From Acidobacteriota bacterium (GTDB lineage Bacteria; Acidobacteriota; Terriglobia; UBA7540), in assembly GCA_902812365.1 (NCBI GenBank), contig CADDZC010000017.1:1-55815 (forward strand): a stretch of DNA of 55,815 nt, given 5' to 3'. A model generated the notes under the pieces. It worked only from the letters and a program-made list of their open reading frames with translations, was not told the DNA's origin and did no database searches. Positions 23,551 through 37,392 of this stretch are shown here, piece by piece. Positions within the stretch are counted from its first letter, which is position 1. Each line of letters starts with the position of its first letter. The translations under genes and the position numbers were made by a program.

Positions 23551-24048
23551 ATGGCTATCGAGCCTCCCGTCACGCTGTCGGTGCTGGATCGGCTGACGGA
23601 GAAGGAAGAGTCCGAGCCTCGAATCTCGGAGGCGTTGGCGAGCCGCTCGGAATCCAGAAGATATGTGCGCTGGGCGGTCCGGAGGGACCTGGAATGGTTG
23701 CTGAACACGCGCCAGGTGCGGGAACCGCCCGCGGAAAGCTTGCGGGAGCTGAACCGCTCCCTCTACGTCTTCGGGATTCCGGACTTCACCAGCTGGAGTC
23801 TCGGCTCGTCGAAAACGCGGCAGGAACTGTTAAAATCCATTCAAAATGTCCTCAAGATTTTTGAGCCACGCTTGTCGAGCGTGCGGGTCGTCCCCTTGGA
23901 AGAATCGAGCTCCGGCTCGCGCACGCTTTCATTCCGGATCGAGGCTGTGCTCCTGATGAACCCGGGGCGCGAGCAGATCGCGTTCGATTCGTCCCTGCAG
24001 TTGCCAACCGGCCGCTTCACGGTTAAAGGGGGAACCGATGCGGGATGA
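23551..24048 (+). CDS. tssE: type VI secretion baseplate protein TssE
   Basis: 165 residues with the gp25-like lysozyme-fold signature: SVLDRLT near the start, RRDLEWLLNTRQ, LNRSLYVFGIPDF, SIQNVLKIFEPRLSSVRV and FRIEAVLLM near the end. TssE is the baseplate wedge component equivalent to phage T4 gp25 and joins the sheath to TssF/TssG/TssK. The stop overlaps the tssF start by 11 nt, consistent with stoichiometric production. The ribosome binding site is weak (GAGGGAACGGGGA). Confidence 0.94.
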   Translation: MAIEPPVTLSVLDRLTEKEESEPRISEALASRSESRRYVRWAVRRDLEWLLNTRQVREPPAESLRELNRSLYVFGIPDFTSWSLGSSKTRQELLKSIQNVLKIFEPRLSSVRVVPLEESSSGSRTLSFRIEAVLLMNPGREQIAFDSSLQLPTGRFTVKGGTDAG

Positions 24049-25885
24049 GTTGCGCTTGCAGGACTATTACGAGCGCGAGCTCACGTTTCTGCGTCAGATG
24101 GGCGCGCGCTTTGCCGAGAAATATCCGGCGATCGCCTCGCGGTTGCTTCTCGAGCGCAACAAGTGCGAAGACCCTCACGTCGAACGGCTGCTCGAAGCCT
24201 TCGCCTTTCTGGCAGCTCGCGTTCACTTAAAGATTGAAGACGACTTTCCGGAGATCACCACGGCGCTGCTCGGCATCCTATATCCTCATTATCTCCGGCC
24301 CATTCCTTCCATGTCGGTCGTCCAGTTTCACTCCGATCCGGAGCAAGGAAAACTTTCGACGAGCATCGTCATCCCCCGCGGGAAGACCCTGTATTCGAAA
24401 CCGGTGAGCGGCGTGCCATGCAAGTTCCAGACATGTTACGAAACGACCCTGTGGCCGCTCGAAGTGGCCGACGCCGGGTGGACCACGCCGGATCGCCTCC
24501 AGCCGGCAGTGCGGGATCGAGAAGCCGTGGCTGTCTTGCGGGTGGAACTTCGGTGCTTTCCGGATGTGACTTTTGAAAAGCTGGAGCTCGACTCCCTGCG
24601 ATTCTACCTGGATGGGGAAAGCCGTCTCGTCCACACTCTCTACGAACTGCTGTGCAACAACTGCACCAGAATTGTGGTTCGAAAGCCCGATGACGGACCG
24701 GCGCCGGCTTCAATCGAACTGCCCGGTGATGCTTTGCGGCCAGTGGGCTTTGAGGAGGACGAGAGCCTTTTGCCTTATCCGCGGCGTTCCTTTGCCGGGT
24801 ATCGACTGTTGCAGGAGTATTTCGCATTTCCAGAGAAGTTTTTTTTCGTGGAGATAACAGGGTTGGCCGCGATGCGGGAGCATTCCTTCAAAGACCGGGC
24901 CGAAATCCTCTTCCTAATCTCGAGGTTCGAGCGCCCGGACCGCCATGAGCGGCTGACCACTGGGATTTCTGCCCAGACGATGCGGCTGGGTTGCGCGCCG
25001 ATCGTAAACCTCTTCGCTCAGACCGCCGAACCGATTCTGGTGGACCAGCGACGCCATGAGTATCCGGTCATACCGGACGTCCGACGCCGCTCGGCCATGG
25101 ATATTTTTTCGGTTGACGAGGTCGTAAGCACCAACCCACAGTCTCGCGAAACCGTGATCTTCCAGCCCTTTTATTCTTTCCGACGCGGCACGATGACCGG
25201 AAAACATCAGGTCTTCTGGCATATGACCCGCCGCAGCGCGGATTATACGGGCGATGAAGAGAGCGAAATTTTTTTGACGATCGTGGATACCAGCGGCCGC
25301 GTCGCTGCCCCCGGCGTCGATGTTCTGACCGTCCGCTGCACCTGCACCAACCGCGACCTGCCGTCGCGCTTACCTTTTGGCAGCGAGGGTGGCGACTTTG
25401 AAATGGAGGGCATGGCGACCATCCGCCGCATCGTGGTGTTGCTGAAGCCAACGGAGTCCTATTCCCCGCCCAGTAGTAAAGATGCACTTTGGAGGCTGAT
25501 CTCCCATCTGTCTTTGAACTACCTGTCGATCGTGTCGGAGGGCAAGGAAGCGTTGCAGGAAATCTTGAGTTTATACAACTTCTCCGACTCTCCCGACCTT
25601 CGGAAGCAGATTTCAGGCATCGTCGGCCTGGCGAGCAGACCTCAAGTGACTCCCATCGTTTCCGAACATGGCATTAGCTCGGCCCGCGGTACCCGCGTCG
25701 AACTTGAGCTTGACGAAGAACAGTTTGCCGGAACGGGTGTGTATCTTTTTTCAAATGTGCTTGAGCGTTTTCTGGGTTGGTATGTGTCCATGAATAGCTA
25801 CTGCCAGCTCGCCGTCCGGACGAAACAAAGAAAGGAGTTCCTGCGAGAATGGCCACCGCGGTCGGGCCAAGCACTCTTGATCTAG
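24038..25885 (+). CDS. tssF: type VI secretion baseplate protein TssF
   Basis: 615 residues, standard for TssF (VasA/ImpG). It begins with the conserved LQDYYERELTFLRQMGARFAEKYP, continues with DPHVERLLEAFAFLAARVHLKIEDDFPEIT and LYPHYLRPIPSM, and carries the C-terminal SLNYLSI segment. TssF forms wedges with TssG and TssE, anchored to the membrane complex through TssK. TssK is not encoded in this window. The gene overlaps tssE by 11 nt and tssG by 37 nt. Confidence 0.96.
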   Translation: MRDELRLQDYYERELTFLRQMGARFAEKYPAIASRLLLERNKCEDPHVERLLEAFAFLAARVHLKIEDDFPEITTALLGILYPHYLRPIPSMSVVQFHSDPEQGKLSTSIVIPRGKTLYSKPVSGVPCKFQTCYETTLWPLEVADAGWTTPDRLQPAVRDREAVAVLRVELRCFPDVTFEKLELDSLRFYLDGESRLVHTLYELLCNNCTRIVVRKPDDGPAPASIELPGDALRPVGFEEDESLLPYPRRSFAGYRLLQEYFAFPEKFFFVEITGLAAMREHSFKDRAEILFLISRFERPDRHERLTTGISAQTMRLGCAPIVNLFAQTAEPILVDQRRHEYPVIPDVRRRSAMDIFSVDEVVSTNPQSRETVIFQPFYSFRRGTMTGKHQVFWHMTRRSADYTGDEESEIFLTIVDTSGRVAAPGVDVLTVRCTCTNRDLPSRLPFGSEGGDFEMEGMATIRRIVVLLKPTESYSPPSSKDALWRLISHLSLNYLSIVSEGKEALQEILSLYNFSDSPDLRKQISGIVGLASRPQVTPIVSEHGISSARGTRVELELDEEQFAGTGVYLFSNVLERFLGWYVSMNSYCQLAVRTKQRKEFLREWPPRSGQALLI

Positions 25886-26883
25886 CCGCCAAACGCCTTC
25901 AGGAGGAGCTCGAGCGAGAGCCTGGCTCCTTCCGCTTCTTTCAGGCGGTGCGGCTGCTGGAACGCCTAACGCCGCACCGAGAACCGGTCGGACGGTTCCA
26001 CGATCCCGCCGACGAGGCGATCCATTTTGCGAGCCACGCCTCGATTTCATTCCCACCGAGCGAGATTCAATCGCTCGAGTGGAACCATGACGAACCCTCC
26101 AAAATGACGGTGAATTTTATGGGCTTGACGGGCCCTCAGGGCGTCTTGCCTCTGTTTTATACGGCTTGGGTGATCGAGCGAATCCGGGTCGGCGACACTG
26201 GAGTAAGGGATTTCTTTGACATTTTCAATCATCGCCTGATTTCTCTGTTCTATCGAGCTTGGGAGAAATACCGTTTTGCGATTGCCTATGAGCGAAGGGA
26301 AGCGGACGCTTTTTCGCATCACTTGCTCGATTTGCTGGGATTAGGAACGCCAGGGCTGCAGGATCGACAGGATGTGCCTGACGAGTCGTTGATGTATTAC
26401 GCCGGCCTGCTCGCTCAACAGCCGCACTCCGCCATCGCCTTGCAACAGCTTCTCGAAGACTATTTTCAGGTTGACGTGGCTATTGAACAGTTCTGCGGGG
26501 GGTGGTATCCCCTCGCATCGGGCAACCAAACTCAGTTGCAAGAGGGAGCGACGATGCCTGAGCGGCTGGGAGGAGGAGCGGTAGTCGGCGACGAGATTTG
26601 GGATCAGCAGTCGCGCGTTCGAATCAGGTTGGGCCCCCTGGGGCTTTCGGATTATCTCGAGTTCTTACCGGACGGCGCCCTCCATAGGCAGCTCCATGCG
26701 CTCCTACGGTTTTTTTCCGGTCACAACATAGAGTTCGAAGTTCAGCTGGTTCTTAAACACGACGAAGTGCCCGCTTGCGAGATCGGCACGGACGACCAGA
26801 CGCAGCTCAGGCTCGGATGGGTAACGTGGATCAAGTCGCAGCCGATGGATCATAATCCGAGTGATACCATCCTCGAACTTTAA
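25849..26883 (+). CDS. tssG: type VI secretion baseplate protein TssG
   Basis: 344 residues. Landmarks are GSFRFFQAVRLLERL, FASHASISFPPSEI, MTVNFMGLTGPQGVLPLFYT and FFDIFNHRLISLFYRAWEKY. TssG (VasB/ImpH) partners TssF in the baseplate wedge. AAGGAG lies 11 nt before the ATG, inside the end of tssF, so the 37 nt overlap is genuine. The stop is 16 nt ahead of clpV. Confidence 0.96.
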   Translation: MATAVGPSTLDLAAKRLQEELEREPGSFRFFQAVRLLERLTPHREPVGRFHDPADEAIHFASHASISFPPSEIQSLEWNHDEPSKMTVNFMGLTGPQGVLPLFYTAWVIERIRVGDTGVRDFFDIFNHRLISLFYRAWEKYRFAIAYERREADAFSHHLLDLLGLGTPGLQDRQDVPDESLMYYAGLLAQQPHSAIALQQLLEDYFQVDVAIEQFCGGWYPLASGNQTQLQEGATMPERLGGGAVVGDEIWDQQSRVRIRLGPLGLSDYLEFLPDGALHRQLHALLRFFSGHNIEFEVQLVLKHDEVPACEIGTDDQTQLRLGWVTWIKSQPMDHNPSDTILEL

Positions 26884-26899
26884 CAAAGGGGACGCCAAG

Positions 26900-29626
26900 A
26901 TGCCCATAAACCTCAAAGCGCTGATCGGTAAACTGAATGATGAAACACGGAGCGCGCTCGAAGCGGCGGCTGGCCTCTGCCTCGCCCGTACTCATTATGA
27001 CGTCGAAATCGAGCACTACTTGCTGAAGCTGATGCAAGCGGCGGACACTGACTTGCCCGCGATCTTGCGCCACTTTGAAGTCGATAGCTCGCGGCTCTCG
27101 GCAGAATTGACCCGCAGCCTGGACAAGCTGAAATCTGGTAACGCTCGCACCCCTGCTCTCAGCCCTACGCTGCTGAGCATGTTTACCGAAGCCTGGACCA
27201 TAGGCTCGATTGATTTCGGGGCCAGTCAAATTCGCTCCGGATTTACGATTGTGGCTCTGGCGGCTAACGACGAGCTCTCCCGCCTCATGCGGGAAGTCAG
27301 CCGGGAGTTCCAAAAGATCCAGGCCGAAAGCCTCCGAAAAGACTTTTTGTCTGTTGTGGCCGGCTCCCGTGAAGAACCGAAGGGGGGGCCGGCGGAGGTC
27401 GGGTCGGACGTCTCCGGCGCCAGGGAGGCCAGCGGCAAAACCCCAAACCTTGACCAGTACACCGTCAATCTCACCGAAAATGCCAAGCAAGGGAAGATAG
27501 ATCCCGTGCTCGGCCGCGATCACGAGATCCGACAGGTGATCGACATCCTGATGCGACGCCGCCAGAATAACCCGATTCTCACGGGTGAAGCGGGTGTTGG
27601 GAAAACAGCGGTTGTGGAGGGATTTGCTTTGCGGGTGGCCCAAGGTGACGTGCCACCGCCCTTACGTGGCGTCAATGTCCGGACGCTGGATTTAGCGCTA
27701 CTTCAGGCCGGTGCAGGCGTGAAGGGCGAATTCGAGAATCGCCTCAAGAGCCTGATTGAAGAAGTCAAGTCTTCACCGACGCCGATCATTCTGTTTATCG
27801 ACGAAGCCCACACAATGATTGGCGCGGGGGGACAGGCCGGGCAGAATGATGCCGCAAACCTGCTCAAGCCGGCGCTGGCTCGGGGAGAGTTGAGAACAAT
27901 CGCGGCAACGACGTGGTCAGAGTACAAGAAGTACTTCGAAAAGGATCCGGCCCTGGCTCGCCGCTTTCAGGTGGTCAAAGTTGAAGAACCCACTGAAGAG
28001 CAATGTATGGTCATGATGCGGGGTACGGTAGGTTCGCTTGAGCGGCACCACCAAGTGCGGATTCTGGACGAGGCAGTGGTGGCGGGGGTGCGCTTTTCGC
28101 ATCGCTATCTGGCAGGGCGACAGCTTCCCGACAAGGCTGTCAGCGTGCTGGACACCGCCTGTGCGCGGCTGGCGCTTGGGCAGAATGCCACCCCGCCGGC
28201 CCTCGAAGACGCCATCCGCCAGCTCGACGACCTGGCAGTCCAACAGCGCATCTTAGAGCGCGAGAGCGCCGTAGGCGCTGACCACGGCGAACGGTTGGAG
28301 CAGATCGCGGCCCGGAAAGCCGATCTCGAGAGGCAAGTGGCAGCATTGCGAGCCCGCTGGGAAAAAGAGGCCGCGCTGGTGGCTGAGATCCGGCAGATTC
28401 GAGCCCGACTCGAGTCTGCGATCGGCGATCATGTCCGCTTGGACTCGCCTGGCAATGGGGTCGGAGACGGGCCTCGGGCGGTTTCGGGGGTACTGCGTTC
28501 GTCCCCGGTCGTGGAGGCAGACAAGCCGGATACGATTACTCCTGATATCCTCCGATCCGATCTCCTCCGCCTGGAAGCAGAGCTTGCCCAGTTACAGGGC
28601 GAGACACCGTTGATGCGAGTCTGCGTCGATGCCCAGACTGTGGGCGAAGTGATTTCCAACTGGACGGGTATCCCGGTCGGAAAGATGCTCAAAGATGAGA
28701 TTTCGACTGTGCTGGCGTTGCCTGACTTGTTGGGACGACGAGTGATCGGGCAACGCCACGCATTGGAAGTGATCAGTCAGCGCATTCAGGCTTCGCGGGC
28801 CAGTCTCGACGACCCCAACAAGCCCGTCGGCGTGTTCATGCTGGTGGGACCAAGCGGGGTCGGTAAGACAGAAACGGCCCTCGCCCTCTCCGACCTACTG
28901 TACGGCGGCGAACATAATTTGATCACCATTAACATGTCGGAGTTTCAGGAAGCCCACACGGTCTCGACGTTGAAAGGGTCGCCGCCCGGATACGTCGGTT
29001 ACGGCGAAGGGGGAGTGCTGACGGAGGCGGTGCGTCGCCGGCCGTATTCCGTTGTACTCCTCGACGAGGTCGAAAAGGCACATCCGGACGTACTTGAGCT
29101 GTTTTATCAGGTGTTCGACAAGGGGATCATGGAGGATGGCGAGGGGCGGGAGATCATTTTCCGAAACAACATCATCATTCTGACGACGAATGCGTGTACG
29201 GACCCCATGATGAAGCTTTGTGCGGACCCAGAAACGATGCCTGATCCAGAAGGAATGATCCGGGCGCTCAAGCCAGAGCTGAACAAGATATTCAAGCCGG
29301 CCTTCCTCGGCCGAATGGTGATCGTACCCTACTATCCGATACGTGATGAATCTTTGCGGCAGATTATCATCTTGAAGCTCGATAAGATCAAGCGACGACT
29401 GCAGGAAAATCACAAAATCGACTTGCTCTACGAAGACGATTTGATTGGTGAAGTGGCCAAACGCTGTACGGAAGTCGAAAGCGGCGCCCGTAATGTGGAT
29501 AATATCCTGACCAATTCACTGTTGCCGGATATTTCGCGACTGCTTCTCGGGCGGATGGCGGCCGGTGAGAAGCTCAGTTCGATCCGCGTCCGCATAGGTG
29601 AAAACGGAGCGTTTGTGTACAGCTAG
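26900..29626 (+). CDS. clpV: TssH/ClpV, AAA+ ATPase that recycles the T6SS sheath
   Basis: 908 residues from the ATG at 26900 (AAGGGGA upstream); 13 extra in-frame codons upstream overlap tssG and are not family-like. The Clp N-domain starts with INLKALIGKLNDETRSALEAAAGLC, the ClpV-specific form. AAA1 has Walker A GEAGVGKT at about 229 and Walker B LFIDEAHT at about 299. A coiled M-domain lies at about 420-520. AAA2 has GPSGVGKT at about 650 and VVLLDEVEKAH at about 717. ClpV extracts TssC from contracted sheaths. A hydrophilic stretch with GNGVGDGPRAVSG after the M-domain looks like a small lineage-specific linker. It is the last recognisable T6SS gene; no vgrG follows. Confidence 0.96.
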   Translation: MPINLKALIGKLNDETRSALEAAAGLCLARTHYDVEIEHYLLKLMQAADTDLPAILRHFEVDSSRLSAELTRSLDKLKSGNARTPALSPTLLSMFTEAWTIGSIDFGASQIRSGFTIVALAANDELSRLMREVSREFQKIQAESLRKDFLSVVAGSREEPKGGPAEVGSDVSGAREASGKTPNLDQYTVNLTENAKQGKIDPVLGRDHEIRQVIDILMRRRQNNPILTGEAGVGKTAVVEGFALRVAQGDVPPPLRGVNVRTLDLALLQAGAGVKGEFENRLKSLIEEVKSSPTPIILFIDEAHTMIGAGGQAGQNDAANLLKPALARGELRTIAATTWSEYKKYFEKDPALARRFQVVKVEEPTEEQCMVMMRGTVGSLERHHQVRILDEAVVAGVRFSHRYLAGRQLPDKAVSVLDTACARLALGQNATPPALEDAIRQLDDLAVQQRILERESAVGADHGERLEQIAARKADLERQVAALRARWEKEAALVAEIRQIRARLESAIGDHVRLDSPGNGVGDGPRAVSGVLRSSPVVEADKPDTITPDILRSDLLRLEAELAQLQGETPLMRVCVDAQTVGEVISNWTGIPVGKMLKDEISTVLALPDLLGRRVIGQRHALEVISQRIQASRASLDDPNKPVGVFMLVGPSGVGKTETALALSDLLYGGEHNLITINMSEFQEAHTVSTLKGSPPGYVGYGEGGVLTEAVRRRPYSVVLLDEVEKAHPDVLELFYQVFDKGIMEDGEGREIIFRNNIIILTTNACTDPMMKLCADPETMPDPEGMIRALKPELNKIFKPAFLGRMVIVPYYPIRDESLRQIIILKLDKIKRRLQENHKIDLLYEDDLIGEVAKRCTEVESGARNVDNILTNSLLPDISRLLLGRMAAGEKLSSIRVRIGENGAFVYS

Positions 29627-29646
29627 CGCCCAACACAGCCGGCAAG

Positions 29647-29668
29647 GCCGACAGGTGCTGGGGTCGGC
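29647..29668 (+). terminator. hairpin after the T6SS operon
   Basis: GCCGAC (29647-29652) and GTCGGC (29663-29668) form a perfect 6 bp stem with a 10 nt loop, 20 bp behind the clpV stop. There is no T-run, so termination would need Rho or another factor. The remaining gap to the kinase gene (to 29912) shows no gene. Confidence 0.3.
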
Positions 29669-29869
29669 AGAGGAACAATGAGCTATGGAGCCGGATTGCG
29701 CACCATCTCCCCACCGCGACTGGCCAGACCGGCGGCCCCTCTTCCTGAACATTACTCCGACGATCAGCGGGACACTCTCTGAACCATACCCCGGGCGGCC
29801 TAGGATTGAGTCGTGGGTCCAACTGTGAATGCCTGGCAGCCGGCCGCCCGCGTTGACCCCGGGGCTCGC

Positions 29870-29898
29870 TTGAGCAACCATTAGGAAAGCGCGATAAT
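29870..29898 (+). promoter_or_regulatory. candidate promoter of the kdpDE genes
   Basis: TTGAGC (29870-29875), a 17 bp spacer and GATAAT (29893-29898, five of six) form a good sigma-70-like pair. It would start transcription only a few nucleotides before the ATG at 29913. The kinase start has no Shine-Dalgarno, so a very short or leaderless mRNA is possible. Confidence 0.4.
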
Positions 29899-29912
29899 AT
29901 CGGCATCGACGA

Positions 29913-31394
29913 ATGAGAAGCGGGCTCGATTCTGAACCTTTCGCCCTTCACTTTGCCCAGCTGAGTATCAGAATTCTCGCTATATCAGCCGCTATCGCGG
30001 CCATTACCGCTCTCTATTTTTATCGAATCCGCGTGAACACAACCACGGTCGCTCTCACTTACCTGATCATGGTTCTGATCGTGGCGGCGCTTTGGGGTTT
30101 CGTGGAATCGATCGTTGCGTCCGTCTTCGCTGTGCTGTGCTTTAATTTCTTTTTCCTGCCGCCAATTCTGACCTTCACGATCGCTGACCCGCAGAACTGG
30201 GTTGCCTTATTCGCTTTCCTAACGACCGCGATCGTCGCCAGCCAACTTTCGGTCCACGGGAAACGCCGAGCTCAGGAGGCGGTGGCGCGACGGACCGAAA
30301 TGGAACAGTTATATTCGCTCAGCCGCGCCATTATGCTCATCGACCCAACCCAGAATGTCAGCAAGCAAATCGCCAACCGCATTGCCGACTCGTTTCACCT
30401 CCGAGCCGTAGCACTGCTCGACCTAGCCAAGGGAGAAATCGTGTATGCAGGACCCGAGGATATTCCAGGAATTGACGCGCGACTGCGGGCGGCCGCCAAA
30501 GGGACGTCCTGTGCTGAGCCGATCGAGGGCACGATAGTAACGGCGATCCGATTGGGCGGTGAACCTATCGGCAGTTTGGCCTTGCGAGGAGACTCTCTGT
30601 CGAATACAGCCGCCCACGCTTTGTGCAATCTCGTAGCGGTTGGCCTGGAAAAGATACGCGCTCAACAAGCCGCCAACCAAGCCGAGGCGGCCCGACAAAG
30701 CCAAGAGTTCAAGTCAACACTTCTGGATGCCATCGCGCACGAATTTAACACGCCTCTGGCCACCATTAAAACTGCGACGACGTCAGTACTCGCAGAGGTA
30801 GTTCGAAATCCGGATGACGTCAAAGATCTATTGACAGTTGTAGATGAAGAAGTTGACCGGTTGAGGAGAACCGTAGAGGACGCGGTGCGGTTGGCACGCC
30901 TCGAAGCGGGCCAAGTTCGGCTCGACCGAAAACCGCATTCCATCTCACCTATCCTCCAATCGGTGTACGAAGAAGCACGCTGCAGAGCTGAAGGAAGGCC
31001 CTTCGCCCTGACGACGGCGAGGGCTTTGCCGGTGGTCATGATCGATGAAGAACTGATCACATGTTGTATCCGTCAATTAGTCGACAATGCTCTCAAGTAC
31101 TCGTCGGCTTCAACGCCGGTGGAGATTTCCGCCGACACCGACGGTGAAGGGCTGGTGATAAGCGTCAGTGATCGCGGTCCGGGAATTCCTGAATGCGAGC
31201 GAGCAAGAATCTTCGAAAAATTCTACCGCCTATCGAGTGATCGGGCGTGCGTTCCCGGAACGGGAATGGGTCTGGCCATTGCACGTCAGATCGTCGAAGC
31301 ACACGGAGGCCTCCTTTCGGTGGAGAATCGCGAGGGGGGCGGCGCCCGATTCTCAATCTCTCTTCCTTTGGTCCTGAAAGGGGTGCGAAGGTGA
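29913..31394 (+). CDS. kdpD: KdpD-type sensor histidine kinase lacking the N-terminal sensor half
   Basis: 493 residues against about 890 for full KdpD. It starts directly with a DUF4118-type four-helix membrane domain (about 20-115). A GAF-like region follows (about 140-255), then the kinase core: H-box HEFNTPL with His276, N-box RQLVDNALKYSS at about 390, G1 DRGPGIP at about 421 and G2 GTGMGLA at about 449. The KdpD N-terminal nucleotide-binding and Usp domains are missing. In E. coli they sense or modulate the potassium signal. A free-standing Usp-like gene lies 0.8 kb downstream. The stop overlaps the kdpE start as GTGA. It presumably phosphorylates KdpE when potassium is limiting. Confidence 0.88.
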   Translation: MRSGLDSEPFALHFAQLSIRILAISAAIAAITALYFYRIRVNTTTVALTYLIMVLIVAALWGFVESIVASVFAVLCFNFFFLPPILTFTIADPQNWVALFAFLTTAIVASQLSVHGKRRAQEAVARRTEMEQLYSLSRAIMLIDPTQNVSKQIANRIADSFHLRAVALLDLAKGEIVYAGPEDIPGIDARLRAAAKGTSCAEPIEGTIVTAIRLGGEPIGSLALRGDSLSNTAAHALCNLVAVGLEKIRAQQAANQAEAARQSQEFKSTLLDAIAHEFNTPLATIKTATTSVLAEVVRNPDDVKDLLTVVDEEVDRLRRTVEDAVRLARLEAGQVRLDRKPHSISPILQSVYEEARCRAEGRPFALTTARALPVVMIDEELITCCIRQLVDNALKYSSASTPVEISADTDGEGLVISVSDRGPGIPECERARIFEKFYRLSSDRACVPGTGMGLAIARQIVEAHGGLLSVENREGGGARFSISLPLVLKGVRR

Positions 31395-32083
31395 GCGCAG
31401 CATCTATTCTGGTAGTCGACGACGAGCCACAGTTGCGGCGAGTGATCCGGACCCTGCTCGCCGCCAAGGGTTACGAAGTCTCGGAGGCCCGAAGCGCGAC
31501 CGAGGCGTTGGAACGTATTCGCGCCGCCGAGTACGATCTCGCTCTGCTGGACATCAACATGCCCGAGACGACCGGCATTGAAGTTTGCCGCCAAGTCCGG
31601 GAACACTCGGAGATGCCCATCATCATCCTCACGGTACGAAGCGCCGAGAGCGACAAGGTCGCAGCGCTCGATGCTGGCGCTGATGATTACGTTACGAAGC
31701 CCTTCGGCGCTCAAGAGCTCTTGGCTCGCATCCGAGCCGCGCTTCGCAGATCAACCATCACTCCGAAGCATGAGCTTTCCCGGCTTCGACTTGGAGAAAT
31801 CGAAATTAACTTCGCTAGCCGGCAAGTCAAGACCGCGGGCACTGAAGTGCGGTTAACCTCGAAGGAGTTCGACCTTCTGCTGTACTTTGCTGCTCACGCC
31901 AACCAGACACTAACCCACCGCGAACTTTTGCAGGCGGTCTGGGGACCCGACTATGGGGAAGAACAGGAATACCTGCGCGTGTTCATCAACCGGTTGCGAA
32001 AAAAGATAGAGCCGTCGCCGAAAAGCCCTCGCTTCTTGCTCACCGAGCCGTGGGTTGGATACCGCCTTCGCCTGCCCGAGTAG
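31391..32083 (+). CDS. kdpE: KdpE-type response regulator (OmpR/PhoB family)
   Basis: 230 residues from a GTG at 31391 that overlaps the kinase stop. The receiver domain holds the acidic pair in VVDDEPQLRR, the phospho-acceptor Asp in LLDINMPETTG and the Lys in VTKPFGAQELLARI. The winged-helix output domain (about 125-228) ends with the KdpE-like QEYLRVFINRLRKKIE and TEPWVGYRLRLPE. It should activate the kdp structural genes; a sequence very like the E. coli KdpE operator lies 46 bp after its stop codon. The frame is open for 48 codons upstream inside kdpD, but the receiver motif starts right after the GTG. Confidence 0.93.
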   Translation: MSAASILVVDDEPQLRRVIRTLLAAKGYEVSEARSATEALERIRAAEYDLALLDINMPETTGIEVCRQVREHSEMPIIILTVRSAESDKVAALDAGADDYVTKPFGAQELLARIRAALRRSTITPKHELSRLRLGEIEINFASRQVKTAGTEVRLTSKEFDLLLYFAAHANQTLTHRELLQAVWGPDYGEEQEYLRVFINRLRKKIEPSPKSPRFLLTEPWVGYRLRLPE

Positions 32084-32106
32084 CCTCGCAGTGCGCCCCG
32101 CGAACC

Positions 32107-32145
32107 TTTATAAATTTTCGACGAATTGTTTATGCCTTGTTTACA
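32107..32145 (+). promoter_or_regulatory. candidate KdpE operator upstream of the kdp structural genes
   Basis: TTTATG-CCTTG-TTTACA at 32129-32145 reproduces the E. coli kdpFABC operator pattern (TTTATA-N5-TTTACA) with one change and the same 5 bp spacing. Another TTTATA (32107-32112) lies 22 bp upstream. The sites sit in a short AT-rich gap between kdpE and the Usp-like gene, where a separate promoter for the structural genes would be needed. Function is inferred from similarity and place. Confidence 0.55.
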
Positions 32146-32170
32146 GGCGGAAGCTTAACCTAGGCATGAA

Positions 32171-32734
32171 ATGGCTTCTGCACGGCAGATTTCGACATTG
32201 GCAACCCGCAGTTCGACGGCTGGGCCTCTCGGATTTTCCAACTTCGGGCCGGATCCTCGCCTCTGCCTAACCGTCCTTTTCACAACCATAAAAGGAACTC
32301 GGACTGCTTTGCAGACGGCAGGAATTCTGGCGAAGAATCTGGGAGCCTGGATCGCACTGGTGGCCGTTGAGGTTGTTCCGTTTCAGTTTCCGATCGATCA
32401 TCCGCCCGTGCCGATCGATTTCCTAGAGCGACGGTATTCTGCCTTAGTGATGGAATCGGAAGTTGAGGTGGAAGAAGTCAGGATTAATCTCTATTTGTGC
32501 CGTGATCGAAACCGGTGCTTGCGAACAATCTTGAAACCCGGCTCTTTGGTCGTCATAGGCTGCGAAAACCGCCGACGCTCAGTTCAACTGCGGAAACTGG
32601 AACGATGGCTGCAGGCACTTGGTCATCACGTCATCCTGGTTCGTTCGGAGGACAGACAACATGCTCGATCTGTTTTACATTCTCATCTGCGTGCTTTATT
32701 TCGGCGCCTGCTGGGTTTTCACCAAAGCCTGTGA
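32171..32734 (+). CDS. Usp-like small protein in the kdp operon
   Basis: 187 residues. I do not recognise a named family with certainty. The pattern fits a universal-stress-protein-like alpha/beta fold: LCLTVLFTTIKG (strand 1), TALQTAGILAKNLGAWIALVAVEVV (helix, strand 2), VRINLYLCRDRNRCLRTILKPGSLVVIGC (later strands with a Usp-like turn) and LERWLQALGHHVILVR. The first 30 residues look unconserved and the true start may be later. KdpD normally carries a Usp domain in its N-terminal half, which the local kinase lacks. This gene may supply that function in trans; that is inference. It overlaps the following 27-codon gene by 74 nt. Confidence 0.6.
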   Translation: MASARQISTLATRSSTAGPLGFSNFGPDPRLCLTVLFTTIKGTRTALQTAGILAKNLGAWIALVAVEVVPFQFPIDHPPVPIDFLERRYSALVMESEVEVEEVRINLYLCRDRNRCLRTILKPGSLVVIGCENRRRSVQLRKLERWLQALGHHVILVRSEDRQHARSVLHSHLRALFRRLLGFHQSL

Positions 32735-32744
32735 TCGACTCTAA
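32661..32744 (+). CDS. 27-residue single-span membrane peptide upstream of kdpF
   Basis: ATG at 32661 with GGAG 10 nt upstream. The peptide begins MLDLFYILICVLYFG and ends TKACDRL: one hydrophobic helix with a short charged C-terminus. Such a micro-gene just before kdpF/kdpA is known to me from other acidobacterial-type kdp loci, but I know of no assigned function. It overlaps the Usp-like gene by 74 nt in another frame and ends 15 nt before kdpF. It could be an additional stabilising subunit of the KdpFABC complex. Confidence 0.6.
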   Translation: MLDLFYILICVLYFGACWVFTKACDRL

Positions 32745-32759
32745 GAAAGGGTGGCCGAA

Positions 32760-32843
32760 GTGGATTATTTGATCGCGGGAATCGCCTCATTCCTACTCTT
32801 TCTTTATTTGCTGTACGCTCTGCTACGTCCAGATCGGTTTTGA
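32760..32843 (+). CDS. kdpF: KdpF, small subunit of the potassium-transporting ATPase
   Basis: 27 residues from GTG at 32760: MDYLIAGIASFLLFL then YLLYALLRPDRF. The single hydrophobic helix ending in a L-x-R-P-(D/E)-(R/K)-F tail is typical of KdpF. KdpF stabilises the KdpABC complex in the membrane. It lies 9 nt before kdpA. It is too short for ordinary gene finders, but the position and C-terminal motif make it secure. Confidence 0.85.
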   Translation: MDYLIAGIASFLLFLYLLYALLRPDRF

Positions 32844-32852
32844 GGGGCTCAT

Positions 32853-34667
32853 ATGACGGCGAACGGACTGTTCCAAATTATGGTCTATTTTCTTGTCATG
32901 GTCGCACTAACGCCGCCGCTTGGGAAATTTATGGCCAACGTCTTCGACGGAAGGCGAACGTTTTTGCACCCGTTGCTCCGACCCGTCGAGCGAGTGATCT
33001 ATCGGCTCAGTGGTGTTCAGGAGGATGCCGAGCAAGGGTGGACTCAGTATACCGCTTCGATTCTTGCGTTTAGTCTCGTTTCCTTTCTGATCGTTTACGC
33101 GATCCAGCGTTGGCAGCGATTGTTTCCGCTTAATCCGATGCACTTTGGAACGGTGCGGGCGCCCTCGAACGCTACAGCGATAACGCCAGATCTGGCGTTC
33201 AACACTGCGGTCAGCTTCATGACGAACACGAATTGGCAGGCGTACGGGGGAGAGACAACGCTCAGTTACTTTGTTCAGATGGCGGCCTTGACGGTGCAGA
33301 ATTTCGTCTCCGCTGGGGCGGGTATGGCGATCGCCGTGGCGTTGGTCCGAGGCTTCGTCCGGCGCGAATGCAGGACGATCGGTAATTTCTGGGTCGATCT
33401 GACTCGGTCAGTCGTGTACGTTCTTGTCCCTCTGGCATTGATTTTTTCGCTGTTCCTTGTTTCCCAGGGTGTTCCTCAAACCCTAAAATCGTATCCGGCG
33501 GCTCGGACGTTGGAGGGGGGCGTCCAAACCATTGCCGTTGGCCCAGTCGCCTCCCAGGAAGCGATCAAGATGCTGGGCTCGAACGGCGGCGGATTTTTCA
33601 ATGCGAACTCGGCTCATCCTTTTGAGAACCCGACGCCACTCACCAACTTCGTGGAGTGCTTGGCGCTTCTTCTGATTGCTGCCGGATTGACCCGCACCTT
33701 TGGGCTCATGGTCAAGGACGTACGCCAGGGCTGGGCGATATTTGCTGCCATGTCCATCATCTTTTGGGCTGGCGTTCTGATTTGCTACGCCGCCGAACAG
33801 AGGGGAAACCCGCTCCTCAGCCGGTTAGGCGTCCAATCCATGCCGAGCCAAACCCAGTCCGGCGGAAACATGGAGGGCAAAGAGGTGCGATTCGGCATCG
33901 CCGATTCGGCATTATGGGCGGTGGCGACGACAGACGCCAGTAACGGCGCCATCAACAGCCAGCATGACAGCTACACGCCGATCGGAGGGTTGATTCCCTT
34001 GTTCAATATGGAGACTGGTGAGGTCGTTTTCGGCGGAGTCGGCTCAGGGCTCTATGGAATGCTCATTTATGCCATCGTGGCTGTATTTGTTGGTGGCTTG
34101 ATGGTCGGTCGAACGCCGGAATATCTCGGTAAAAAAATCGAGCAAAAGGAGGTGAAGATGTGCATGTTGGCCCTGATTGCTATGGCGGTGAGTATTCTTT
34201 GCTTCTCCGCCATCAGTGCCGTCGCTCCTTTTGCTAAGGGAGGTTACTGGAATGCCCCAGGTCCGGCTACCGCCAACGTGAACAATGGAGGTCCGCATGG
34301 TTTGAGTGAAATTCTCTATGCGTACAGCAGCGTTACAGGGAACAACGGTAGCGCTTTCGCCGGACTCAATGCCAATACGCCTTGGTACAATTTGACCATC
34401 GGCGTGGCGATGCTCGTCGGGCGCTTCCTGATGATCATCCCCATCCTGGCCGTCGCCGGCAGTCTGGCAGCGAAAAGGCACCTCCCCGTAACCAGCGGCA
34501 CCTTACCGACTCATGGAGGGCTATTCGTGGGCCTGCTGGTGGGCACCATCGTTATCGTCGGCGCGCTGACGTTTTTTCCCGCACTTTCCTTGGGTCCCAT
34601 CGTCGAACATTTTTTAATGCAACAGGGAAGACTCTTTTCCCTTTTCTGCTCCTCGGTCTGGAGTTAA
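32853..34667 (+). CDS. kdpA: potassium-transporting ATPase channel-like subunit KdpA
   Basis: 604 residues with about ten membrane spans. The four pore-loop segments of the selectivity filter are visible: [48 protein letters not shown], and the last near [16 protein letters not shown]. KdpA binds potassium with high affinity and passes it to KdpB. GAGGGG precedes the ATG. It follows kdpF and precedes kdpB by 3 nt. The length is slightly above the E. coli protein (557), mostly from loops. Confidence 0.97.
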
Positions 34668-34670
34668 TCG

Positions 34671-36800
34671 ATGCTTCCTAGCTCAACTTGGTCAGTTCAC
34701 GGTAGCTCGGTAGGCTCGCGGGAATCAGAATTGCTGATCCCCAAAAGACTCGTCCGCGCACGCCCTCTATTGGACTCGCCGATCGTCCTTCGGGCGGTGA
34801 AGAATTCGTTTCGAAAGTTGAATCCGGTAATCCAGGTCCAGAACCCGGTCATGTTCGTAGTCGAGGTGGGCGCGGCTATTACTACCGTATTTCTCGCACG
34901 AAACCTGCTCCTGCGAGTCCGAGATCTTGGCTTCAGTTTTCAGATCGCTCTGTGGCTGTGGTTTACCGTGCTTTTCGCCAACTTCGCCGAAGCCATGGCT
35001 GAAGCGCGCGGCAAAGCGCAGGCCGACACGCTCCGGAAGAGCAAAACGGACACGATTGCCAAGAGGATTGTGAGCGGCAATAGGACTGAAGCGGTGCCGG
35101 CCTCGAAACTCCGCGCGGGAGATATCGTTCTTTGTGCGACCGGCGACACGATTCCGGGGGACGGCGAAGTCATCGAAGGGATCGCCACTGTGGACGAGTC
35201 GGTGATCACGGGTGAAAGTGCTCCGGTCATCCGCGAGTCCGGCGGAGACCGTAGCGCGGTAACCGGCGGAACCAAAGTATTGTCTGACCAGATCAAGATC
35301 AGGATCACATCCAACCCAGGTGAAACGTTCCTGGACCGCATGATCGCCTTGGTCGAAGGCGCGGAGCGACAGAAGACACCGAACGAGATCGCTCTCAACG
35401 TGTTGATCGCCGGACTGACGCTCATTTTCCTACTGGCCGTGGTCACGTTGCATCCCTTTGCGAAATATAGTGTCACCGCCGTCGGAGCCGGCGGCGTCCC
35501 ATCGGTCGCCGTGCTGGTGTCGCTGCTGGTTTGTTTAATCCCAACCACAATTGGCGCCTTGCTGTCGGCGATCGGAATAGCCGGCATGGACCGAGTCATG
35601 CAACACAACGTCCTCGCTATGAGCGGCAAAGCGGTCGAGGCCGCTGGGGACGTCAATACGCTGTTGCTGGACAAAACCGGCACGATCACGCTGGGCAATC
35701 GCCAGGCGGTGGAATTCATCCCCGTCGAAGGCGTGACGGAGTTGGAGCTGGCCGACGCGGCTCAACTCTCCAGCCTGGCCGATGAGACGCCGGAAGGACG
35801 ATCCATCGTAGTTCTCGCCAAGCAGAAATTTCAGTTGCGGGGTCGGGAAGTGTCTGACCAGGAAGCTCGATTCATTCCGTTCTCGGCCTACACGCGTATG
35901 AGCGGGGTCGACCTGGAAGGCCGGAGGTTGCGTAAAGGGGCCACCGATGCCATCGTCAAGTTTGTTGAAGAACAAGGCGGTGCCGTGCCGGCGAATTTCA
36001 TGGAGACATCGGACCGCATCGCGCGCATGGGGGGCACGCCACTGGCGGTGGCCGATGGCCCGCGACTTCTGGGCACGGTGTACCTCAAGGACATCGTAAA
36101 AGGCGGGATGAGAGAGCGTCTCACTCAGCTTCGCACCATGGGAATCCGGTCAGTGATGATCACCGGGGACAACCCCCTTACGGCCGCGGCGATCGCCCAG
36201 GAAGCCGGGGTTGACGATTTTCTGGCGCAGGCCACCCCCAAAGAGAAGCTCGATTATATTCGCAGAGAACAGGCCGAGGGGCGATTGGTGGCCATGACGG
36301 GTGACGGAACCAACGACGCTCCGGCTCTGGCCCAGGCGGACGTAGGGGTGGCGATGAACACCGGCACCATGGCCGCCAAGGAAGCCGGCAACATGGTCGA
36401 CCTGGACAGCAACCCCACGAAACTGATTGAAATCGTGGCTATCGGGAAGCAGTTGTTGATTACCCGCGGTGCGCTCACCACTTTCTCGATCGCCACTGAC
36501 CTGGCGAAGTACTTCGCCATCATTCCGGCCATGTTTATGAGCACGTATCCTGCTTTGGGCGCCTTGAACATTATGCACTTGCACTCACCCCAGAGCGCGG
36601 TTCTGGCGGCGGTGATTTTCAACGCGCTGATTATCATCGCCCTGATTCCCCTGGCCCTCCGCGGCGTCGCCTACAGACCCCAGGTCGCGGCGAGTCTACT
36701 GCTGCGTAATCTGTTGATCTACGGAATCGGCGGCGTCATCGCTCCGTTCCCGGGCATCTGGTTGATCGATCGCCTTCTGATCGGGTTAAAGCTGGCTTGA
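34671..36800 (+). CDS. kdpB: potassium-transporting P-type ATPase subunit KdpB
   Basis: 709 residues. The phosphorylation motif DKTGT has its aspartate at about 334. The actuator motif TGES is at about 180; its serine is the site of inhibitory phosphorylation known in E. coli KdpB. The hinge [10 protein letters not shown] is at about 543. Seven membrane segments are expected. It hydrolyses ATP to drive potassium import through KdpA/KdpB. The first 30 residues are variable, followed by the conserved [24 protein letters not shown] overlaps the end of kdpA. Confidence 0.97.
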
Positions 36801-36810
36801 AAGGGTCACT

Positions 36811-37392
36811 ATGTGGCAACAGATGCGGCCTGCCATTCGAATGACGTTGCTTTTGACCGTCTTCACCGGTCTAGCCTACCCGGGTCTCGTGACCGGGCTG
36901 AGCCAGGCCTTGTTTCCCTGGAGAGCGAACGGTAGCCTGGTTGCCGTCAACGGCCGGATTGTGGGTTCAGAGCTGATCGGCCAGAACTTTTCCCGACCGG
37001 CCTATTTCCAGCCGCGCCCCTCAGCGGCCGGCGCTGACGGCTACGATGCCAGTGCCTCCAACGGCTCAAACCTCGGCCCAATCAGTCAAAAGTTAATCGA
37101 CCGAATCACCGCCTCGATCCAGAAGTTCAGGAAAGAGAATGCCGACTTTAGCGGACCCCTTCCGGCCGATCTGGTGACGACATCGGCCAGTGGCCTGGAT
37201 CCGCATATCAGCCCGGCCTCGGCCGAAGCCGAGGCGCCCCGGATTGCCGCCGCCCGCGGCGTCCCCCTCGGCCAGATCATGGAGCTCATTCGAGAAAATA
37301 CCGAAGGTCGAACGCTTGGGTTTTTGGGAGAGCCCAGGGTCAACGTGTTGAGGCTCAACTTGGAGTTAGACCGCCGATGGCCCCAGAAGTAG
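36811..37392 (+). CDS. kdpC: potassium-transporting ATPase subunit KdpC
   Basis: 193 residues with one N-terminal membrane helix (about 9-30) and conserved KdpC segments: GSELIGQNFSRPAYFQPRPSAAG, YDASASNGSNLGP, LVTTSASGLDPHISPASAEAEAPRIA, and GEPRVNVLRLNLELDR at the end. KdpC stabilises the complex and raises its ATP affinity. It starts 10 nt behind kdpB and closes the operon. Confidence 0.97.
   Translation: MWQQMRPAIRMTLLLTVFTGLAYPGLVTGLSQALFPWRANGSLVAVNGRIVGSELIGQNFSRPAYFQPRPSAAGADGYDASASNGSNLGPISQKLIDRITASIQKFRKENADFSGPLPADLVTTSASGLDPHISPASAEAEAPRIAAARGVPLGQIMELIRENTEGRTLGFLGEPRVNVLRLNLELDRRWPQK

Follow-up and report, generated by a model that had tools for sequence, protein, structure and literature searches.

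A predicted KdpE operator docked on a -35-less promoter between the regulator and pump genes of an acidobacterial kdp cluster

We describe here a kdp cluster in 55,815 nucleotides of DNA from an Acidobacteriota bacterium (the window), in which the genes for a sensor kinase and a response regulator precede the pump genes on the same strand (Table 1). E. coli KdpD has N-terminal KdpD (ATP-binding) and Usp domains, and Pfam found neither in the kinase, for which the top NCBIfam model is nonetheless KdpD (187 bits, with a cut-off of 1123). The closest solved structure to the regulator is E. coli KdpE (4kny, E 1.1e-54), and alignment to it shows that R193, R200, and T215 of the E. coli protein are kept, but the regulator is below the NCBIfam cut-offs both for KdpE (NF007820; 206.9 bits vs 325) and for YycF (208.6 vs 340). 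The KdpE and KdpD assignments are thus putative and rest on linkage and likeness, both proteins missing the NCBIfam cut-offs. We took GTG 31391 as the start of the regulator gene, with an alternative GTG seen at 31247. Pfam, NCBIfam, and PDB sequence searches gave nothing meaningful for the 187-aa ORF, and one homologue tested in Pfam likewise gave none, so that the label "Usp-like" attached to it by the first-pass annotation remains unproven. The 27-aa ORF has no Pfam or NCBIfam family match and is presumed to be kdpF-like from its position and likeness; it is read in a different frame from the 187-aa ORF, whose 3' end it overlaps, and length-limited gene calling would miss it. Just upstream of the cluster, at 24038-29626, are ORFs that we take to resemble type VI secretion genes (TssF, TssG, and a ClpV-like ATPase), and no Rfam family was found in 29000-33200.

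Table 1. Genes and regulatory features of the kdp cluster in the window. The half-sites and the -10 element are predictions.
Feature	Coordinates	Strand	Basis
KdpD-like sensor histidine kinase	29913..31394	+	Pfam above cut-off: DUF4118, HisKA, HATPase_c only
KdpE-like OmpR/PhoB response regulator	31391..32083	+	Pfam Response_reg and Trans_reg_C
Half-site 1, CTTTATA	32106..32112	+	11-bp register with half-sites 3 and 4
Half-site 2, TTCGACG, decayed	32117..32123	+	Placed by 11-bp register; half-site matrix score -5.4
Half-site 3, GTTTATG	32128..32134	+	Within de novo motif
Half-site 4, GTTTACA	32139..32145	+	Within de novo motif
Predicted -10 element, TAACCT	32156..32161	+	10 nt past half-site 4; family-wide conservation
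187-aa ORF, first gene of predicted transcript	32171..32734	+	tblastn matches upstream of kdpA in 14/34 family stretches
kdpF-like ORF, 27 aa, MLDLFYILICVLYFGACWVFTKACDRL	32661..32744	+	Translation
kdpA, kdpB, kdpC	32853..37392	+	Pfam KdpA E 5.5e-242; E1-E2_ATPase and Hydrolase; KdpC E 5.3e-71

An 87-bp gap with 47% GC, compared with 61% in the window, separates the stop of the response-regulator gene (32083) from the ORF that follows (32171). Direct reading of this gap bears out the sequence TTTATG-CCTTG-TTTACA reported by the first-pass annotation, which occupies 32129-32145 (TTTATG at 32129-32134, the CCTTG spacer, and TTTACA at 32140-32145), as well as the additional TTTATA at 32107-32112, whose start is 22 bp, or two times 11 bp, from that of TTTATG. 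The gap is AT-rich for this genome, and the element could be a chance AT-rich word within it, or could owe its conservation to recent common descent only, but we regard either as exceedingly improbable. The exact form TTTAYR-N5-TTTAYR occurs once on the two strands of the 55.8-kb window against a mean of 0.02 in 100 dinucleotide shuffles, arises in just 0.07% of 20,000 shuffles of the gap, and is followed after 10 nt by YAnnnT in none of these 20,000. In the whole 3.5-Mb genome this pair with its -10 pattern has one forward match, the window site itself, and none on the reverse strand or in the control. A search of the window allowing two mismatches returned three matches against a chance mean of 1.94, which is no excess, and because such loose matches do no better than chance the significance of the element depends on its exact form and on its conservation. 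A motif matrix built from the family scores the window site at 29.8, and the next two places in the window reach 10.2 and 9.3, the latter being the overlapping repeat at 32113. A plain sigma-70 scan found no promoter, as would be expected if the promoter has no -35, though this provides no support either. We also note an inverted repeat (32129-32143/32156-32170, 80%).

Conservation was examined in a family sample of 39 genomes, of which 29 have KdpA; 34 stretches were fetched, and the regulator-kdp gap could be cut out in 24, including the window. Kinase, regulator, and kdpA are consecutive on one strand in 23 of the 34 stretches, and apart from two divergent arrangements (L055 and L056) the others are without one of the three within the stretch, several of them being contig ends. 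Alignment of the kdpE-downstream gaps, as the first pass had proposed, gave a positive result: a de novo search with no input motif recovered the 11-bp direct repeat AAnTCTTTATGnnTTCTTTATG in 22 of the 24 gaps from related Acidobacteriota, on the coding strand every time and with a log-likelihood ratio of 336, compared with 92-94 in three shuffled sets, and the two remaining loci (L060 and L061) have the same motif further downstream. Across family loci, most with a KdpE 60-67% identical to that of the window, the motif is kept while the remainder of the gap differs, which argues against recent descent as the sole reason for its conservation. A preceding de novo search had taken in 1000 bp ahead of kdpA (7/35 entries dropped) but caught a conserved opposite-strand stretch, probably kdpF coding, and was dropped in favor of the gap alone.

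The -10 element is conserved along with the repeats. With the window there are 35 family entries, five of which were dropped from the matrix, generic-array, and joint-model scans because the kdpA start is missing or the contig ends, and two of the remaining 30 (L052 and L055) are below the cut, leaving 28 matrix-placed operators. In 23 of the 28 a [TC]AnnnT pattern begins 10 nt past the motif, and in four it begins 21 nt past it, one repeat later, a count made without choosing the last half-site and with the -10 excluded from the motif definition. When the operators are aligned by the last half-site, A is found at the second position in 27/28, T at the sixth in 27/28, and T or C at the first in 26/28; the exception, L045, fits once its weaker next repeat is counted, which is how the generic-array scan places it. 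Two rearranged loci deserve mention. At L055 and L056, each the second kdp system of a family genome, the kinase and regulator genes are divergent from the pump genes and there are array matches on both strands upstream of kdpA, which suggests autoregulation. In L061 (3360-5259) the C-terminal end of the regulator is duplicated about 1.7 kb after the regulator and is followed by the operator, as if the operator had thereby stayed beside the pump genes.

These features suggest with high likelihood that the element is a KdpE operator and the promoter of the 187-aa-ORF/kdpFABC operon, the gap between regulator gene and pump genes very probably being the docking site of that same regulator. The best reading is of a PhoB-box-like operator, with four phased half-sites at 32106-32145 docked on a promoter that has the -10 TAACCT and no -35. 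The sequence, register, conservation, and -10 spacing of the array, together with the conserved DNA-contact residues of KdpE, are computed, and in the following scheme we infer KdpE binding, its dependence on phosphorylation, the transcription start, and the K+ signal. Phosphorylated KdpE, the product of the gene just upstream, would bind in head-to-tail fashion to half-sites of 7 bp (consensus YTTTAYG) spaced at 11-bp intervals, and the four registered half-sites of the window would constitute two dimer sites. A PhoB operator replaces the -35 and is at a fixed distance from the -10, and the window has the corresponding 11-bp repeats, a short fixed gap of 10 nt between array and -10 hexamer, and no recognizable -35. 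KdpE would thus occupy the position of sigma region 4, as PhoB does on pho boxes, and would recruit RNA polymerase to the weak -10 at low K+. Transcription would start at about 32168, such that any leader before the ATG at 32171 would be at most a few bases, and the mRNA of the first gene may be almost leaderless. The KdpE-operator reading of the first-pass annotation is supported as regards the motif, its conservation, and its promoter-like place before the 187-aa ORF and kdpFABC, where that annotation saw a need for an internal promoter; what changes is that TTTATA becomes the first of four registered half-sites, in an array positioned 10 nt from a -10.

A simpler model, which we consider unlikely but a genuine competitor, is that the KdpE operator has just two half-sites, like that of E. 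coli, with only 32129-32145 in use and the TTTATA 22 bp before it fortuitous. The degeneracy of half-site 2 leaves the window with only one intact pair plus one half-site, several family loci (such as L042 and L053) have just two good half-sites, and in E. coli two half-sites are reported to be enough for binding by the DNA-binding domain (PMC3264566). However, half-sites beyond the motif's own pair are confined to the 11-bp register, being found among the 28 operators at offset -22 in seven and at -11 in nine, with no other offset recurring in at least three loci, and four relatives (L097, L120, L144, and L150) show four good half-sites. We therefore continue to favor the four-site array.

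Comparison with the E. coli system is instructive. The E. coli operator TTTATA-N5-TTTACA consists of two proven half-sites with a footprint from -72 to -50, and mutation of R193, R200, or T215 in KdpE stops kdp induction (PMC3264566). The window resembles it in the half-site letters (TTTA(T/C)A twice, with the first repeat one base off, G for A), the 5-bp gap that gives an 11-bp period, the strand and orientation, the place before the kdp structural genes, and these three residues. The two differ in gene order, the regulators following the structural genes in E. coli and preceding them in the window, and in position, since the last half-site of the window ends 10 nt before the predicted -10 and its contiguous array extends from about -62 to -23 relative to the predicted start, rather than from -72 to -50; we take the latter position to be peculiar to the E. 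coli example and not to define KdpE operators in general. They also differ in that the window dimers are contiguous (an inter-dimer distance D of 11), whereas E. coli has an apparent second pair, TTTTGCG/CTTTGCA, 21 bp on. The complete E. coli array would be TTTTATA-CTTT-TTTTACA, 14 nt, TTTTGCG-AAAT-CTTTGCA, 10 nt, and TACCCT, and it fits D=21 with a score of 27.6 against a shuffle maximum of 13.0, with the reverse strand also passing, at D=9. The first half-site starts 65 bp before the end of TACCCT, which is consistent with the -72 to -50 footprint (PMC3264566) if TACCCT is the -10.

The pho box is likewise composed of 11-nt head-to-tail repeats, each with seven conserved and four less conserved bases (PMC4415409), and the window is similar to pho box promoters in these repeats, in its predicted occupation of the -35 position, and in the fixed distance to the -10; it is dissimilar in its half-site, YTTTAYG as compared to CTGTCAT, and in its regulator. 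In mycobacteria, an account that counts four species with mapped KdpE sites describes the 22-bp site of M. smegmatis as having no noticeable likeness to the others (PMC5401905), but its reverse complement is GGCCTTGATGGTTTCTTTACGG, or CTTGATG-N4-CTTTACG, the same repeat as in the window; in the site as printed (PMC5401905) the repeat is on the opposite strand, which is a departure from the window. Half-site conservation beyond E. coli is itself already published, with kdp promoters of several Proteobacteria and Firmicutes aligned, and the legend of Fig. S3 naming Salmonella, Pseudomonas, 'Rhodobacter palustris', S. aureus, and Enterococcus (PMC3264566). Among the open-licence literature matches listed, nothing concerned acidobacterial kdp regulation, four-site arrays, layouts, -10 docking, or a helix code.

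Arrays of a similar kind are found ahead of kdp genes across the Acidobacteriota, and five further phyla have them as well. A match was found in 116 genomes of the phylum, and 80 loci outside the family were fetched. Scanning 5000 bp upstream with a generic half-site array plus -10 gave scores of at least 18 on the forward strand in 46 of the 80 loci and on the reverse strand in four, and downstream in 0/80 on either strand; the acidobacterial signal is thus upstream and strand-specific. The generic half-site matrix was set after the family and phylum sites had been seen, and was fixed before the 11-bp-period scoring of six other phyla, for which 160 loci were oriented by tblastn; these are best KdpA matches, at most 31 per phylum, and not a random sample, with L359-L361 and L421, under the family cut-off, excluded. 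Arrays with 11-bp period above the 99th percentile of shuffles were found in 14/30 Pseudomonadota (with two reverse-strand matches and two inside kdpA coding sequence), 8/25 Actinomycetota (ten and two), 2/15 Bacillota (none and none), 10/30 Chloroflexota (two and two), 7/29 Bacteroidota (none and none), and 4/31 Cyanobacteriota (two and none), so that in Actinomycetota the reverse matches outnumber the forward ones. Other periods reach 0 to 5 in these phyla, and period 11 exceeds the seven other periods tested in five of the six, which again argues against a chance word; Bacillota depart from this, with period 8 reaching four vs two at period 11. The first pass suggested that conservation of the operator across phyla would be notable; similar arrays do occur in other phyla, and conservation beyond E. 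coli is already partly in print (PMC3264566). A triple-repeat pattern scan of genome contigs was rejected as evidence of conservation, in that, of 107 stretches, the 80 listed seemed mostly to be 11-bp minisatellites, and only L192, L201, and L215 among these 80 are near kdp genes.

Half-site spacing points to two layouts, a contiguous one (11/11/11) as in the window and a split one (11/21/11) that E. coli fits. We used a joint model of two pairs with D free between 8 and 35, applied to 3500 bp upstream in other Acidobacteriota and 1500 bp in the remainder, a locus passing if it beats all 40 of its shuffles; the matrix was softened and the layout of half-sites 3 and 4 chosen after certain loci that the model also scores had been inspected, so that the model is not independent of those loci, although D was left free. 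In the family 30/30 loci pass, 27 of them with D=11, and in other Acidobacteriota 61/80 pass and 19/80 fail, with D=11 in 33 of the passing loci and D=20-22 in a further 20. Passes elsewhere number 22/30 in Pseudomonadota, 12/25 in Actinomycetota, 8/15 in Bacillota, 16/30 in Chloroflexota, and 9/29 in Bacteroidota, and the joint model gives no signal in Cyanobacteriota (2/31 forward and two reverse). Among these 69 passes D is 20-22 in 59 and 11 in none. Reverse-strand passes occur in 2/30 family loci, 10/80 other Acidobacteriota, and 24/160 loci of other phyla, 15 of the latter being Actinomycetota. All ten Pseudomonadota with D=22 have a half-site 3 that is not half-site-like (CCGTCTC in six), and they may therefore have three sites only; the split label of L122, L126, and L175 is doubtful. 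Arrays scoring above 18 lie on the strand opposite kdpA in 6/25 Actinomycetota loci (high-scoring split arrays in L325, L326, L327, L331, L332, and L333), as does the repeat of the M. smegmatis site in its printed form. Perhaps a divergent promoter is served by these arrays, or the operator has been turned around.

The recognition helix of the linked KdpE covaries with both layout and half-site base within Acidobacteriota, as judged from aligned sequences. Y191, R193, and R200 (E. coli numbers) are jointly conserved in 78 of 90 aligned regulators. Counting half-sites of the form NYTnANN in acidobacterial loci that pass the joint model, the residue before Y191 corresponds with the fourth half-site base, E with T in 147/175, H with G in 32/36, and L with A in 16/17; E. 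coli is an exception to this rule, with H and T. The residue four after Y191 corresponds with layout, F with 40 contiguous and three split, Y with none and 14, and other residues with ten and two (Fisher 9e-11 for F/Y, uncorrected for descent). Related loci inflate these counts, and a tree test allows for part of this: on a tree of 68 regulators, from which E. coli KdpE is absent (it is cut off in L066), layout requires four changes vs 16.8 for shuffled labels, with 0/500 shuffles as low. CTTCAGG-type repeats, for the most part in the 11-bp register, are seen in L100, L112, L116, L130, L134, L168, and L169. The regulators linked to three of these (L100, L116, and L168) carry W at the position of R193, and W is evidently not required, since CTTCAGG occurs with R193 in L130 and L134.

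This covariation bears on a further alternative, in which the element is the operator of another OmpR/PhoB regulator (PhoB, or a WalR/YycF-like protein), or a repressor site, rather than a site of KdpE activation. Head-to-tail 11-bp repeats are general in the OmpR/PhoB family, the YycF score of the window regulator is slightly above its KdpE score with both under cut-off, and same-word arrays without kdp genes occur in Coriobacteriaceae stretches that have response-regulator and kinase genes. We nevertheless find this alternative improbable, because the motif accompanies kdp genes both within the phylum and outside it, because differences in half-site base and layout go with differences in the recognition helix of the regulator linked to them, and because the half-site agrees in its letters with the proven site of E. 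coli KdpE and not with the pho box consensus CTGTCAT (PMC4415409).

Taking KdpE as the regulator, the observations can be joined in a broader proposal, which we see as evenly poised between right and wrong. Kdp promoters across bacteria would contain two tandem KdpE dimer sites, with the last half-site docked 10-11 nt from the -10, in lineage-specific layouts that are either contiguous or split by the insertion of one helical turn. A distinct KdpE subtype would go with each layout (a YLRVF vs a YLR[VI]YM helix), and within Acidobacteriota the amino acid preceding Y191 would set the fourth half-site base. The E. coli kdp promoter would then contain, where its -35 would be, another dimer site that has been overlooked, TTTTGCG-AAAT-CTTTGCA, and this prediction of a second KdpE pair is testable in E. 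coli. Because operators usually drift fast, a regulator, half-site, and fixed -10 distance that are traceable over several phyla would provide a good system in which to study how response regulators co-evolve with their sites and with RNA polymerase, and the two layouts and the helix-base covariation offer a cheap and direct way to test how specificity changes among OmpR/PhoB regulators. We also note that L225, L232, L238, L245, and L251, from Coriobacteriaceae and Atopobiaceae, have triple CTTTATG arrays in stretches with response-regulator or kinase genes, with no kdp genes found, and this word may there be recognized by a different regulator of the OmpR family.
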